Below are positions 49,332 through 54,403 of a stretch of 64,000 nt of DNA, piece after piece. Position 1 is the first letter of the stretch; every line of letters begins with the position of its first letter. The notes below the pieces were generated by a model. It had not been told where the DNA came from. It worked only from the letters and a program-made list of their open reading frames with translations, and did not search any database. Made by a program: the position numbers and the translations under genes. Origin of the DNA: Nocardia sp. BMG51109 (GTDB lineage: Bacteria; Actinomycetota; Actinomycetes; Mycobacteriales; Mycobacteriaceae); NCBI RefSeq assembly GCF_000526215.1, contig NZ_JAFQ01000004.1, positions 6,262,001-6,326,000 on the forward strand, written 5' to 3'.

Positions 49332-50264
49332 ATGACTTCGACCGGGGAGTGGGCCGATGGACGGGCGAGGGCCGGCGCCGGCTCCGAAACGGCAGGGGCA
49401 CAGGGCGATCGGGAGGCATTGCCGCGAGCCGTGGATACCGAGCGGTATCCCTTGGATCGGCCCGGCGGCGCCGACTGGAATCGCGTGGTGGACAGGGCGA
49501 GAGCGGACCTGGCCGCCGACGGATGTTGTGTCCTACCGGGATTCATCCGCGCGGAGCTGCTGGATACGCTGCGCGCCGAGGGGGATGCGCTGGCCCCGCA
49601 CGCCTACTACACGGTCGAGAAGGTCAACGCCTACAATATCCCGCTGGATGCCGACCTGCCGTCCGGTCATCCGGGCACCATCGTGCTCGAGCGCGGAAAC
49701 GCCTTCGTCGCACGCGATCTCATTCCGGCCGACGCGCTGATCGAGGTGCTCTACACCAGCCCGGGCTTCCAGCGCTTCCTCGCCGACTGCTTCGGCCTCG
49801 CCGAACTGCACGAATTCGCCGATCCGCTGGCCGGACTGACCCTGAACGTCGTGGCGCCGGGGATGTCGCACCCGTGGCATTTCGATACCAACGCCTTCAC
49901 CGTCTCGATGCTCACCCGCGCCGCGCAGGCCGGCGGGGTGTTCGAATACTGCCCCGGCATCCGGACCCCGGAGGAAGAGAACCTCGGGGACGTGCGCGCG
50001 GTGCTGACCGGCCGGGGCGACGGGCTGATCCGCCGGCTGGAGCTGCGCCCCGGCGATCTCCAGCTGTTCCAGGGCCGGTTCTCGCTGCACCGGGTGTCTC
50101 CGGTGGAGGGCACCGCGCAGCGGCACTCGGCGATCTTCGCCTACACCGAGCAGACCGGTGTCGTAGGCAACGTCGAACGCACCCGGCAGCTGTTCGGCCG
50201 GGTACTGGACGACCATCTCATCGCGGCGGGCAATACGGTCCGCGGCGACCGACTACTCGACTGA
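49332..50264 (+). CDS. PhyH-type Fe(II)/2-oxoglutarate-dependent dioxygenase
   Basis: Non-haem iron oxygenase of 310 residues. The double-stranded beta-helix core carries the facial triad: His183 and Asp185 (SHPWHFDTNAF) and the distal His253 (SLHRVSP), with Arg264 (QRHSAIFAY) placed to bind 2-oxoglutarate. The N-terminus (1-45) is probably disordered. The phytanoyl-CoA dioxygenase-like fold is used for hydroxylation or halogenation of amino acids and lipids. It is the first of three tightly packed genes with a methyltransferase and a carnitine-type acyltransferase, so it may install the hydroxyl group that is later acylated. Substrate unknown. ATG at 49332; no strong ribosome site. Confidence 0.88.
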   Translation: MTSTGEWADGRARAGAGSETAGAQGDREALPRAVDTERYPLDRPGGADWNRVVDRARADLAADGCCVLPGFIRAELLDTLRAEGDALAPHAYYTVEKVNAYNIPLDADLPSGHPGTIVLERGNAFVARDLIPADALIEVLYTSPGFQRFLADCFGLAELHEFADPLAGLTLNVVAPGMSHPWHFDTNAFTVSMLTRAAQAGGVFEYCPGIRTPEEENLGDVRAVLTGRGDGLIRRLELRPGDLQLFQGRFSLHRVSPVEGTAQRHSAIFAYTEQTGVVGNVERTRQLFGRVLDDHLIAAGNTVRGDRLLD

Positions 50265-50276
50265 GAGGACGTGCCC

Positions 50277-51104
50277 GTGCCGGTTTCGTTGCACAGCACC
50301 GGAAAAGCGTCGTTCGACGACATCTACGATCGCCCCGATCCCTCCGCGTACTACGACCGGATGGCGGAACTGGACTATTGCATTCCGGAGCTGGCGAAAC
50401 CGCATTTCGAAAGGGTCATCGCGGACTACCGGACCGCCGTGGGCACGGCACCGACGGTGCTGGACATCGGCTGCTCCTACGGGGTGAACGCCGCGGTGCT
50501 GCGGCTGGACACCACGGTCACCGAGCTGGCCGAACACTACCGCGGCGGTGATACCGGCACCTGTGCCGCGCGCGACCGGGCGCGGCTGGCGGCCGCCGAT
50601 CCGCGGCCGGAGGTCCGGTTCATCGGCACCGACTCGGCCGGTCCGGCGCTGTCCTACGCGCGGGCCGCGGGCCTGGTGCAGGACATCGTGCACGCCGATC
50701 TGGAGACCTCGGCCCCCACAGAACCGCAGCGCCGGATACTGGCGTCCGCGGATCTGGTGATCTCCACCGGCTGCGTCGGCTACGTTACCGAGCGCACGTT
50801 GCTGCGCGTGGCACGGGCGCACGGTGCCCGGCTGCCGTGGATGGCACACTTCGTGCTGCGGATGTTCGACTTCGAGCCGATCGCGGCGGAGCTGACGGAA
50901 CTCGGGTACCGGATAGAGCGCATACCCGGCACCCACCGCCAGCGCCGCTTCGCCTCCGAGGCCGAGCAGACCCAGGTGCTGAACACCCTGTCCGCCAACG
51001 GGATCGATGCGACCGGCCTGGAGGCCGACGGGTGGCTGCACGCCGAGCTGTATCTCTGCCTGCCCGACGACGACCGACCGACCACAGACGAGGACCGCCC
51101 GTGA
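50277..51104 (+). CDS. Class I SAM-dependent methyltransferase of the acyltransferase operon
   Basis: Methyltransferase-like protein of about 275 residues. Motif I reads VLDIGCSYGVNAAVL and an acidic post-I strand reads VRFIGTDSAGPALSYA; motif IV-like SADLVISTGCVGYV follows. The N-terminal DDIYDRPDPSAYYDRMAELDYCIPELAKPHFERVI is a helical lid typical of small-molecule methyltransferases. GAGAGGAC fits the GTG at 50277 better than the one at 50271. Gap to the dioxygenase stop is only 12 bases, and its own stop overlaps the acyltransferase start by 4 bases. The acceptor is unknown; N-methylation of an amino compound would fit the carnitine-like third gene. Confidence 0.8.
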   Translation: MPVSLHSTGKASFDDIYDRPDPSAYYDRMAELDYCIPELAKPHFERVIADYRTAVGTAPTVLDIGCSYGVNAAVLRLDTTVTELAEHYRGGDTGTCAARDRARLAAADPRPEVRFIGTDSAGPALSYARAAGLVQDIVHADLETSAPTEPQRRILASADLVISTGCVGYVTERTLLRVARAHGARLPWMAHFVLRMFDFEPIAAELTELGYRIERIPGTHRQRRFASEAEQTQVLNTLSANGIDATGLEADGWLHAELYLCLPDDDRPTTDEDRP

Positions 51105-52912
51105 CCGACCGCACCTTCGCCTTCGACGACCAGCTGCCGCGCGTGCCGCTGCCCACCCTGGAGGACAGCTGTGCGCGATTCCTGGAATGGAGCGCGCCGC
51201 TGCTGACCGAGGACGAACGCGCCGAGACCGAGCGCACCGTCGCCGATCTGCTCCGGGAAGACGGCCCGGCCCGCATCCTGCACGCCGACCTGCAGCGGTT
51301 CGACGCGGAACCGGGCGTGCGCAGCTGGCTCGACGAGTTCTGGCCGGCCCGCTACCTGGGCCGGCGCGACCGAATCGCGTTGAACGCCAACTTCTTCTTC
51401 CTGTTCCGCGACGACACCCCGCTCGCCCGCTCGACGTCCGGCCGGCAGGCCGAGCGCGCGGCCGCGATCATCACCGCCGCGGTGAACTACAAGCTGCTGC
51501 TCGACGCCGAGGAGATCCCGCCGGCGACGCAGCGCGGGCAGCACCTGTCGATGGCGCAGAACAAGTCCCTGTTCTCCGAGACCAGGATTCCCGGCGACCC
51601 ACAGGACACGGTCCGGGTGCCCTACAGCGACGAGTGGCCGGGGCCCTCGCGGGCACGCCACATCGTGGTCTTCTTCCGCGGCACCATGTTCCGGATGGAC
51701 GTGATCGGCGCGGGCGGCGCCCCGCACAGCCAGGAGGATCTCGTCGACGGGTTGCAGTCGGTGCTGAAGGCCGATACCGGCCGGGCCGCGACCGGCACCG
51801 CCGCGGGCCATCTGACCACCCTCGCGCGGGCCGAATGGGCCACCGTGCGCGCCGGGCTGCGCGCGGAACCGGTGAACGCCGCCGCCCTCGACACCATCGA
51901 GACCGCGCTGTTCTGTGTCTGCCTGGAGGATTTCGCCCCGCACGACGCCCAGCACGCCTGCGATCAGCTGCTGCACGGCGACAGCGGCAACCGCTGGTTC
52001 GACAAGGCGGTGTCGTTCGTCGTCTTCGGCGACGGCAGCGCGGGTATCAATGTCGAGCACTGCGGCCTGGACGGCACCACCATCCTGTCTTTCGTGGACG
52101 CGCTGCTGGCGACGCCGGTCGCCGACCATGCCGAGCGGTCCGGGGCGCAGGCGCAGGGGTTGCCCGTGGTCGAGCCGATCGAGTTCGCGCTCGATGAGAA
52201 GCTGCGTGCCCGGATCACGGACGCGGCCACCGACTTCGCCCGGTTCGCCGCCGACAATGCCACGCGCATCGTCTCGTTCGAGGACTTCGGCGCCGATCGC
52301 GCCAAGTCGCTGGGCATGTCGCCGGACGCCTTCGCCCAGCTGAGTTACCAGCTCGCGCATCGGCGCAGCAAGGGGCTGATCGGCGCCACCTACGAGTCCA
52401 TCGCCACCCGGCAGTTCCGCAACGGCCGCACCGAGGCGATGCGCGTGATCACTCCGCAGATGCTGGAATTCGTTGCGGCGATGGACGATCCGCGGGCCGA
52501 CGCCGACGAGAAGCGGGCGCGGCTGCGCGCGGCCGCCGAGGCGCACGGGCAGCGCGCGAAGCAGTGCCAGCGCGGCGACGCCCCGGAACAGCACCTGTGG
52601 GAACTCCAGCTGATCCAGCGCCGGCGCGGCGAGCGGCTGGGCGCCACCGAGCCGATGCCGTTCTACGACAGCCCGGGCTGGCTCATCACCCGCGACGACT
52701 ACCTGAGCACCAGCTCGGCGCCCTCGGCGAATATCGAGTACTTCGGTTTCGGGTGCACGAGCCCCAAGTGCATCGGCGTGGCGTACGTGCTGTTGCCCGA
52801 CCGCTGGAACATCTACCTGGCCACCCCGACATCCGTGGCGGCGCAGATGCACGACTTCGCCGAGCAGCTGCGGATCGCGGTGCGCGAGCTGGCGGAGTTG
52901 TTGAGCAGTTAG
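51101..52912 (+). CDS. Choline/carnitine O-acyltransferase family protein
   Basis: Full-length member of the carnitine acyltransferase family, 603 residues, close to the size of animal CrAT. The strongest match is GNRWFDKAVSFVVFGDGSAGINVEHCGLDG (297-325 region), where GNRWFDK and the catalytic His320 with the following DG correspond to the family active site. A C-terminal STSS (DDYLSTSSAPSANIEYFG) corresponds to the STS motif that binds the hydroxyl acceptor. The upstream FFFLFRDD and AERAAAIITAAVNYKLLLDAEEIPP are family-typical. The protein should transfer an acyl group from CoA to a hydroxyl. Such genes are common in eukaryotes but scattered in bacteria. GTG at 51101 overlaps the methyltransferase stop (GTGA), so the three genes act together. 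Confidence 0.9.
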   Translation: MTDRTFAFDDQLPRVPLPTLEDSCARFLEWSAPLLTEDERAETERTVADLLREDGPARILHADLQRFDAEPGVRSWLDEFWPARYLGRRDRIALNANFFFLFRDDTPLARSTSGRQAERAAAIITAAVNYKLLLDAEEIPPATQRGQHLSMAQNKSLFSETRIPGDPQDTVRVPYSDEWPGPSRARHIVVFFRGTMFRMDVIGAGGAPHSQEDLVDGLQSVLKADTGRAATGTAAGHLTTLARAEWATVRAGLRAEPVNAAALDTIETALFCVCLEDFAPHDAQHACDQLLHGDSGNRWFDKAVSFVVFGDGSAGINVEHCGLDGTTILSFVDALLATPVADHAERSGAQAQGLPVVEPIEFALDEKLRARITDAATDFARFAADNATRIVSFEDFGADRAKSLGMSPDAFAQLSYQLAHRRSKGLIGATYESIATRQFRNGRTEAMRVITPQMLEFVAAMDDPRADADEKRARLRAAAEAHGQRAKQCQRGDAPEQHLWELQLIQRRRGERLGATEPMPFYDSPGWLITRDDYLSTSSAPSANIEYFGFGCTSPKCIGVAYVLLPDRWNIYLATPTSVAAQMHDFAEQLRIAVRELAELLSS

Positions 52913-53205: not shown

Positions 53206-53622
53206 CTACGGAGTGGACCCGGGTGCTCTGTCGAGGAGCGCCTGGAGCATAGTGGTCGTCGCGGTATGTCGCGCATCGCCTTCGCGCCTGATCTCGGCTA
53301 CCGACCGTTCCAGGTTCTCTACCGACCGTTCCAGGTTCTCCAGAGACATGGTGTGTTTGGCCAAGACCGCCGTGTGCTCGGTCAGGGTCGCGGTGTGTTC
53401 GCGTTGTGTCCCTGTGATTTCCGTGAGTTCGGTGGTGTGCTGGGTGAGTACTGCCGTGTGGTGGTCCTGTGTCGACTTGATTTCCGTGAGTTCGGTGGTG
53501 TGCTGGGTGAGTACTGCCGTGTGGTGGTCCTGTGTCGACCTGATATCCGCGAGATCGACGGTGACGTTTCCAGCGAAGGACTCGAGTCCTCGCAGGCGGT
53601 TCTCGACCATGGCGTCGTTCAT
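53206..53622 (-). CDS. Repetitive coiled-coil protein
   Basis: 138 residues. After a 25-residue head (MNDAMVENRLRGLESFAGNV) comes a run of heptads with the 21-residue unit STQDHHTAVLTQHTTELTEI, present twice almost identically and two more times in drifted form, then two copies of ENLERSV, and the tail MLQALLDRAPGSTP. The unit is written in DNA as a 63-bp repeat (53416-53541). It should form a parallel coiled coil with polar, Thr/His-rich heptads. GGGGGAAC precedes the ATG at 53622. It lies upstream of the small paralogue on the same strand. No function is known; such repetitive proteins are frequent in Nocardia. Confidence 0.65.
   Translation of the reverse strand: MNDAMVENRLRGLESFAGNVTVDLADIRSTQDHHTAVLTQHTTELTEIKSTQDHHTAVLTQHTTELTEITGTQREHTATLTEHTAVLAKHTMSLENLERSVENLERSVAEIRREGDARHTATTTMLQALLDRAPGSTP
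53416..53541. repeat. 63-bp tandem duplication inside the coiled-coil gene
   Basis: Copies at 53416-53478 and 53479-53541 differ at one position. The length keeps the reading frame and adds 21 residues, three heptads. A second, 21-bp duplication (TACCGACCGTTCCAGGTTCT type) lies at about 53299-53341 and encodes the doubled ENLERSV. Copy number probably varies among strains. Confidence 0.9.
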
Positions 53623-53836
53623 CTGCGTTCCCCCTTCTGGATGCCGGACAAAGGGATATCCCGCCCGGGTGCGGCCGACGGTAGCGGGGCGATAGGAGAC
53701 TCGCCAAGTACGGCGAAGTTCCCGCACCCCTTCCGGCGTGCCGGAGTCTTCGCCGGGCACGGCGGAGTCCGCCACAGCGCTGTGACCGGTGAAAATGGAT
53801 ATCCGATGCGGCGCGGGACGGCTACCGTGAGCACTC

Positions 53837-54403
53837 GTGAACGACACGCACACGACGGTGTTCGCGTGGCGGCCGGTCGCCCCGGCCGACTTTCCGCTGC
53901 TCGCCACCTGGCTCGCGCAACCTCACGTGCGGCGCTGGTGGAACCACGAGTTCACGCCCGAGGCGGTCGAGCGCGACTTCGGTCCGGCGGCACGCGGTGC
54001 GGAACCGGGCGAGGACCTGCTCGTATACGCCGACGGCGAACCGTTCGGTCTGGTGCAGCGGTGCCGCCTGGCGGACTATCCGGAATATCTCGACGAGCTG
54101 TCGCCGCTGGTCGAGGTGCCGGCGGGCGCGGCCTCGCTCGATTACCTGGTGGGTGATCCGGACCGGGTCGGCCGCGGGCTGGGTTCGGCGATGCTGCGCG
54201 CGGTGGTGGCGGGAACGTGGGTCGAATATCCCGGCACCGGCTGTCTCCTCGTCCCGGTCGCCGCCGCGAATGTGGCGTCGTGGCGGGCGCTGGAGAAGGC
54301 CGGAATGCGCCGGATCGCCGAGGGCCACCTCACGCCGGACAATCCGGCCGACGACGGCAACCACTACGTCTACCGCATCGGCCGCCCGGGAGCCGGCACC
54401 TGA
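53837..54403 (+). CDS. GNAT-family acetyltransferase, AAC(6')-like
   Basis: N-acetyltransferase of 188 residues. The N-terminus [37 protein letters not shown] is typical of the aminoglycoside 6'-acetyltransferase/siderophore branch (Acetyltransf_8 type). The acetyl-CoA loop reads [12 protein letters not shown] and the C-terminal motif reads [22 protein letters not shown]. The real substrate cannot be told: relatives modify aminoglycosides, but also lysine or siderophore amines. GTG at 53837. It is transcribed toward hisE after 95 bases, although not obviously linked to it. Confidence 0.88.

Follow-up and report, generated by a model that had tools for sequence, protein, structure and literature searches.

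The three-gene locus and its occurrence

The 64,000-nucleotide stretch of Nocardia sp. BMG51109 DNA analysed here (the window; contig NZ_JAFQ01000004.1, positions 6,262,001 to 6,326,000) carries three tightly packed genes for an oxygenase (DIOX), a methyltransferase (MT) and an acyltransferase (CAT). In window coordinates the genes are as follows:

49332-50264, + strand: DIOX, 310 residues, Fe(II)/2-oxoglutarate oxygenase, divergent BesD/HalD-type hydroxylase
50277-51104, + strand: MT, 275 residues, class I methyltransferase dependent on S-adenosylmethionine (SAM)
51101-52912, + strand: CAT, 603 residues, choline/carnitine O-acyltransferase-family protein

A gap of 12 bases separates DIOX from MT (6 bases if MT starts at the GTG at 50271), and MT overlaps CAT by 4 bases. 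Rechecking of the open reading frames agrees with the coordinates, strands and packing given in an earlier sequence-only reading of this DNA. The nearest named relatives of the three proteins, from N. transvalensis, N. blacklockiae, N. wallacei and N. mexicana, are 76-86% identical.

Relatives of CAT are encoded by 435 stretches in a collection of 84,980 species and occur in 3 of 217 genomes of a phylum sample, as expected from the view of the sequence-only reading that carnitine-type acyltransferases are rare in bacteria. The best 80 of the 435 stretches, found by a genome scan with two patterns, one of which held the Gln497 motif described below, were taken as named loci; their genes were called by codon-score scripts, so that starts are approximate. 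Streptomyces contributes 24 of these loci, Actinomadura 20 and Nocardia 12, and there are 18 genus or group labels in all, including Amycolatopsis, Actinokineospora, Saccharopolyspora, Frankia, Parafrankia, Actinophytocola, Micromonospora and Kibdelosporangium. DIOX, MT and CAT are contiguous and in this order in 68 of the 80 loci and under 15 of the 18 labels, with MT and CAT fused in three of the 68. Among the remaining 12, ten have DIOX and CAT in the same orientation, in another the two genes are convergent, and in the last CAT stands alone, 74 bases from a contig end. DIOX therefore lies beside CAT in 79 of the 80 named loci. The median distances between the aligned segments of the trio are 55 and 75.5 bases.

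The MT-CAT fusions are single open frames of 902 residues in Streptomyces specialis, 891 in Gandjariella and 878 in Candidatus Frankia, with similar linkers. A second, divergent trio in a Nocardia genome (G460; L068, 6960-10486) has an 888-residue MT-CAT fusion with a different linker and an Arg at the place of Gln497. Since natural fusions occur in four loci, MT and CAT are expected to act on one molecule. Other arrangements include DIOX and CAT adjacent with MT on another contig (G489) and the gene order DIOX-CAT-MT (G516). Three Nocardia loci have a Pyr_redox_2 gene between MT and CAT (L061, 4995-6359; L062, 4776-6158; L063, 6464-7807); by domain scan that of L061 encodes a pyridine-nucleotide-disulphide oxidoreductase, and by BLAST the other two belong to the same family.

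The same association is found genome by genome. In the order sample of 200 genomes, a real CAT is present in 20 (21 if one match at E 6e-4 is counted), DIOX above 340 bits in 18 and MT above 220 bits in 16, and all 18 and all 16 are CAT genomes. Among 85 Pseudonocardiaceae genomes, CAT is found in 28, MT in 25 (22 of them CAT genomes) and DIOX in 31; in the 26 genomes where DIOX exceeds 400 bits, CAT lies within about 1.2 kb in every case. The hypergeometric values for DIOX with CAT, which ignore relatedness, are 1e-23 in the order sample and 7.5e-20 in Pseudonocardiaceae. In 59 Nocardia genomes, CAT and MT are each found in 58 and DIOX in 57, counting CATs split across contigs or frames (G421, G425, G435) unmended; one genome in 1340 contigs (G462) has none of the three. 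No CAT match was found in genomes of the same family outside Nocardia in the 200-genome order sample, in which mycobacteria were not searched by name. The phylum sample gives CAT in two Nocardia and as one distant 200-bit match, MT in 12 genomes and DIOX in 10. No trio was found in viral contigs, by a pattern scan, or in plasmids; phage records were not searched.

The suggestion that the trio belongs together is thus upheld by the 68 contiguous loci, the 26 of 26 DIOX-CAT pairs in Pseudonocardiaceae and the four fusion loci. A quick CAT tree groups sequences largely by genus. Rank correlations of pairwise distances are 0.80, 0.67 and 0.75 and, lacking an outside control, are not used as proof. 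The trio does not extend into a larger gene cluster: apart from its own members, each gene family near CAT with at least three members in the 80 loci is found in a single genus or only within Streptomycetaceae. There are two exceptions, one family in 10 Actinomadura and 1 Frankia and the other in 2 Streptomyces and 1 Saccharopolyspora.

In the window, the trio is preceded by metH and by genes for a protein kinase and a HAD protein, and is followed by a GNAT gene, hisE and hisG. The placement of the trio between metH and hisE in the sequence-only reading stands, with the protein-kinase and HAD genes intervening after metH and the GNAT gene before hisE. The protein-kinase gene was considered as a cassette partner, since such a gene adjoins CAT in one locus and lies near the Nocardia trio, and this was judged to be chance. 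No promoter, terminator or RNA family was found near the window trio. Tandem repeats (21-base x2 and 63-base x2.3) at 53298-53557 fall within a - strand open reading frame, 53206-53907, without a Pfam match.

Catalytic and substrate-binding residues

The CAT alignment has 154 rows, made up of the 120 database proteins nearest to the window protein (those with a named source are from Nocardia), 33 proteins of the loci and, once more, the window protein, and is redundant. The DIOX (147 rows) and MT (144 rows) sets were built in the same way, with the window counted twice in each. The residues in question are:

49878-49886, + strand: DIOX HxD iron ligands H183-F-D185, in 147/147 aligned rows
50088-50090, + strand: DIOX third iron ligand H253, in 147/147 aligned rows
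50457-50483, + strand: MT SAM motif VLDIGCSYG, with D63, S67, Y68 and G69 in 144/144 rows
52058-52060, + strand: CAT catalytic His320 (CrAT His343), in 152/154 rows and in 81/81 of the named loci plus window
52589-52591, + strand: CAT Gln497 at the place of the DRHL Arg, Gln in 151/154 rows and Arg in 3/154
52742-52750, + strand: CAT F548-G549-F550 (CrAT M564-F565-F566), F548 in 152/154 rows (2 Trp), G549 and F550 in 154/154

The iron triad of DIOX, the SAM motif of MT and the active site of CAT, the last comprising His320 and the GNRWFDK motif, are all where the sequence-only reading placed them, and all are conserved as listed.

DIOX had been labelled a PhyH dioxygenase. It has no PhyH match in Pfam at E up to 1, and its best PDB matches, both by sequence and by fold, are the BesD/HalD group. 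The Pfam HalD model (PF23169) scores 47.5 bits against a gathering score of 26, covering only part of the model, while WelO5, at 20 bits, is below its cut-off of 27. By sequence and fold, DIOX is a divergent relative of the BesD/HalD family of amino-acid hydroxylases and halogenases. The iron- and 2-oxoglutarate-binding residues are conserved in the 147 rows, and the WHFD motif is present in all 79 named loci with DIOX. A halogenase identity, as database naming would have it, was rejected: the iron-ligand Asp185 is intact in 147/147 rows and no aligned row has HxG. Because Asp185 is present, DIOX is of the hydroxylase type and not of the HxG halogenase type. In databases, many DIOX relatives bear the name 'HalD/BesD family halogenase' or 'arpA protein' despite an intact iron-binding Asp, for which the former name is misleading. 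A Pseudonocardiaceae genome (G517; L171, about 440-1114) encodes an HxG member of the family (WHWGDF) that is likely a true amino-acid halogenase.

The substrate of DIOX may differ from that of BesD. E123 and D143 of BesD are reported among the residues that contact the amino group of lysine (PMC13244439). In an alignment without gaps between BesD residues 111 and 143, E123 corresponds to Leu166 of DIOX (145/147) and D143 to Thr186 (146/147), so that the acids for the lysine amino group, the mark of a lysine hydroxylase of the BesD type, are replaced by Leu and Thr. The carboxylate-binding H137 of BesD aligns with H180, which is kept in 147/147 rows. As a control, 12 paralogues of the BesD/HalD type have Glu at the E123 place in 10 and Asp at the D143 place in 11.

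MT has a Rossmann-type fold and motif I, and is a class I SAM methyltransferase. Its fold matches do not tell an N-methyltransferase from a C-methyltransferase.

CAT matches the Pfam model PF00755 with 534 bits over profile positions 1-573 of 574. In phmmer it matches COT at E 8e-65 and CrAT at 2.6e-64, and ChAT at a lower score. With this domain and the catalytic His, CAT belongs to PF00755; Tyr431, Thr444, Ser536-Thr537-Ser538, Gly549 and Phe550 are each present in 154/154 rows. Where CrAT, COT and CPT2 read DRHL in the alignments, CAT reads EQHL, so that it lacks the Arg at CrAT position 518 that marks a carnitine acyltransferase. Arg518 of CrAT binds the carboxylate of carnitine, and ChAT has Asn at this place. 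Since Gln replaces the carboxylate-binding Arg, carnitine is probably not the acceptor. Gln497 is also found in 81/81 of the named loci plus window, a biased set, since one of the two scan patterns held its motif. The three rows with Arg are second CAT copies, two of them also without the catalytic His. Based on its residues, CAT is a choline/carnitine-type acyltransferase, probably with another acceptor.

The acyl and acceptor pocket of CrAT includes M564-F565-F566, with Met564 limiting acyl length and F566 facing the trimethylammonium group. Because Phe548, with a larger side-chain, replaces Met564 in CAT, its acyl groups are likely short. At the coenzyme A site, PMC11852590 describes roles for CrAT Lys419, Lys423, Asp430 and Glu453. 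By hand alignment, the CAT residues at the Lys423, Asp430 and Glu453 places are kept in 154/154 rows.

Two Nocardia genomes (L065, 4023-12035, G459; L066, 5253-9908, G449) have a second PF00755 paralogue, in which Glu replaces the catalytic His and Arg replaces Gln497. The neighbours of the L065 paralogue are an MFS protein, an MppP-like enzyme dependent on pyridoxal phosphate and a 2-hydroxyacid dehydrogenase, with a type III polyketide synthase gene further off. Second copies in two more Nocardia genomes (G415 and G437) are search matches only. The gene caller missed the CATs of L065, L067 and L068; those of L065 and L068 were read from listed open reading frames.

A proposed pathway and its alternatives

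The enzyme families, the conserved catalytic residues, the joint occurrence and the MT-CAT fusion are observed, and from them a pathway can be proposed. DIOX would hydroxylate an unactivated carbon of a small free amino-acid-like or betaine-like substrate. MT would use SAM to methylate the same molecule, with nitrogen as the likeliest target and a quaternary ammonium group as the result. CAT would transfer a short acyl group from acyl-coenzyme A to the hydroxyl made by DIOX. Candidate acceptors that may be compatible with Gln497 are side-chain-trimethylated 5-hydroxylysine and an alpha-amino-acid betaine with a beta-hydroxyl; in both, nitrogen and hydroxyl would be spaced as they are in choline and carnitine (N+-C-C-OH), with the carboxylate at another position. 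The substrate, the order of the steps, the methylated atom, the chain length and the product are predictions from sequence.

The chances seem about even that the trio is one dedicated unit for hydroxylation, methylation and short-chain O-acylation, giving a zwitterionic ester that resembles acylcarnitine but is not acylcarnitine. With somewhat less confidence, it may represent a widespread actinomycete pathway for O-acylated, hydroxylated amino-acid betaines. These would be bacterial analogues of acylcarnitine, made with a carnitine-fold acyltransferase turned to a new acceptor, and short acyl groups might be held in this form for storage, osmotic purposes or signalling. The sequence-only reading had arrived at a joint pathway of the same kind. 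Its logic, hydroxylation and acylation together with methylation of a zwitterion-like small molecule, is retained; the PhyH enzyme drops out, and carnitine as the acceptor is weakened by the Gln in 151/154 rows.

The surroundings of relatives that occur alone bear on the type of substrate. Among 10 loci with lone MT relatives from other classes, three (L044, L045 and L050, all from one family) encode an ABC transporter for betaine, proline or choline only a few genes away; the MT of L042 was not recovered by the gene caller. Three of the 8 loci with a lone DIOX relative encode a DddP-like M24 protein directly next to it, at 428, 381 and 239 bits against a cut-off of 600:

L052, 10533-11870: DddP-like M24 protein beside a lone DIOX relative, other actinobacterial family
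L053, 8305-9510: the same
L054, 10432-11592: the same

These pairs possibly form an onium-compound pathway of their own. In two genomes of one genus, lone CATs lie 10 bases behind an amino-acid permease. Each of these contexts is weak on its own; taken together, they suggest zwitterions of the amino-acid type that are hydroxylated or methylated.

Several observations weigh against a dedicated three-step unit. Of the 79 loci in which DIOX adjoins CAT, 11 have no MT, including all three Amycolatopsis (a count of loci only), and four whole genomes with the DIOX-CAT pair lack it too (G174, G505, G515, G531); the presence of MT requires 8 changes on the quick CAT tree. Because of the 11 loci, methylation may be unneeded or supplied elsewhere where MT is absent, and, with MT missing from about one locus in seven, the quaternary nitrogen itself may not be there at all, may be taken up from outside or may come from a different enzyme. 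CAT occurs without DIOX in two genomes of the order sample (G018, G050), alone in two Pseudonocardiaceae (G496, G524), and with MT only in one Nocardia (G455, L064). Without CAT, the order sample has weaker MT matches in G023, G041 and G082, with a trace in G074, and weaker DIOX matches in G049, G083 and G150. Outside Nocardia, no genome of the phylum sample has two of the three, and MT and DIOX relatives are never together there. Among the families listed, the fold matches of MT give no specific relative or substrate. In DIOX, Asp164 (147/147) lies two positions from the site of the missing BesD acid, for which it could stand in, and BesD D239 and W241 fall outside the aligned part. In CAT, the Lys419 place holds Lys in 1/154 rows only. 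Finally, the lone relatives are only 31-48% (DIOX) and 35-40% (MT) identical, and their contexts may not transfer.

In an MT-less locus of Amycolatopsis suaedae (L134), no substitute methyltransferase was found just upstream, where genes for nitrate reductase subunits and a TM_HPP gene are located. A 673-residue flavoprotein neighbouring the genes of MT-less Streptomyces was rejected as a demethylase candidate; its nearest NCBIfam models are FadH/OYE and BaiCD, at scores below their cut-offs.

An alternative that is unlikely, but deserves weight, is that MT is not an N-methyltransferase and instead esterifies a carboxyl group with methyl, methylates oxygen or carbon, or makes a sulfonium; the end product would then be a hydroxy amino-acid derivative that is acylated but carries no trimethylammonium. 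The fold matches would allow it, while the residue equivalent to CrAT F566, which faces the trimethylammonium, is present in CAT in 154/154 rows, and known PF00755 members use quaternary ammonium alcohols. It is distinctly less probable that the genes form a detoxification or tailoring unit in which DIOX and CAT act on a compound from outside or on an antibiotic encoded at another place in the genome. No core synthase adjoins the cassette, its flanks vary between families and two lone CATs adjoin a permease, all of which would suit such a role; near-universal presence in the sampled Nocardia (57-58 of 59) and a CAT tree largely by genus better suit a housekeeping-like metabolite. The 'arpA protein' name on some DIOX relatives is a label only.

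That the product is acylcarnitine itself, made from gamma-aminobutyrate or gamma-butyrobetaine without a BBOX enzyme, appears very improbable, even though the three reaction types are the same, the acyltransferase fold is of the carnitine type and the N+-C-C-OH geometry would fit. Against it stand the Gln at the DRHL Arg (151/154, and 81/81 in the biased set) and a DIOX for which Pfam, searched up to E 1, gives no match of the TauD/BBOX type. Least probable of those considered is that DIOX is an oxidative demethylase that hydroxylates an N- or S-methyl group and releases formaldehyde, the set remodelling methyl groups without forming an ester. The formaldehyde-activating enzyme Fae is encoded by the gene next to lone DIOX relatives in 2 of 8 loci (L055, 6444-6956; L056, 10416-10919), which suggests oxidative demethylation in those loci. 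Their DIOX relatives are 35-38% identical and lack H180, no Fae occurs among the trio neighbours that were scanned, and demethylation would leave no hydroxyl for CAT.

If the O-acylated betaine pathway is correct, PF00755 acyltransferases of actinomycetes would gain a biosynthetic role with a new acceptor, and the BesD/HalD family would be extended by a hydroxylase clade with another type of substrate. A metabolite class would be predicted in Streptomyces, Actinomadura, Frankia and nearly every sampled Nocardia, and the pathway would need just three enzymes of familiar chemistry.

Comparison with known systems

No account of such a pathway was found among the papers listed by searches of an open-access library, subscription papers being outside the scope; the sequence-only reading likewise knew of no described pathway with this set. 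The BesD/HalD family (the halogenases BesD, HalA, HalB and HalD and the lysine hydroxylase 7jsd) has a structural identity to DIOX of 16-20%, and the partial 47.5-bit Pfam HalD match compares with 308 bits for a core family member (L039). Unlike BesD, DIOX has Leu and Thr for the two acids at the lysine amino group and is tied to MT and CAT. With CrAT, COT, CPT and ChAT, CAT shares the full-length PF00755 domain, the catalytic His, the STS sequence and the equivalents of Thr465 and Phe566, as well as, by hand alignment, Lys423, Asp430 and Glu453 of the coenzyme A site. Unlike the carnitine acyltransferases, it has Gln for Arg518 and Phe548 for Met564, hardly keeps Lys419, is bacterial, and is fused to MT in four loci.

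MppP makes hydroxy amino acids, and the L065 context, of the enduracididine type, likewise places a PF00755 protein beside a putative hydroxy-amino-acid enzyme in an actinomycete, with an MppP match of 185.5 bits, below the cut-off of 450. It differs from the trio in that an enzyme dependent on pyridoxal phosphate stands in for DIOX, no MT is seen, and the CAT paralogue has Glu for the catalytic His.

Eukaryotic carnitine biosynthesis, with TMLH and BBOX, followed by the acyltransferases, proceeds by the logic of trimethylation, hydroxylation and acylation. The cassette differs in its unrelated type of hydroxylase, its free-standing MT, its bacterial setting and an acceptor that is probably not carnitine. 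The enzyme superfamilies are known, while their combination and the residue changes are undescribed as far as the open-access searches show; the cassette parallels the carnitine route and is not a member of it.

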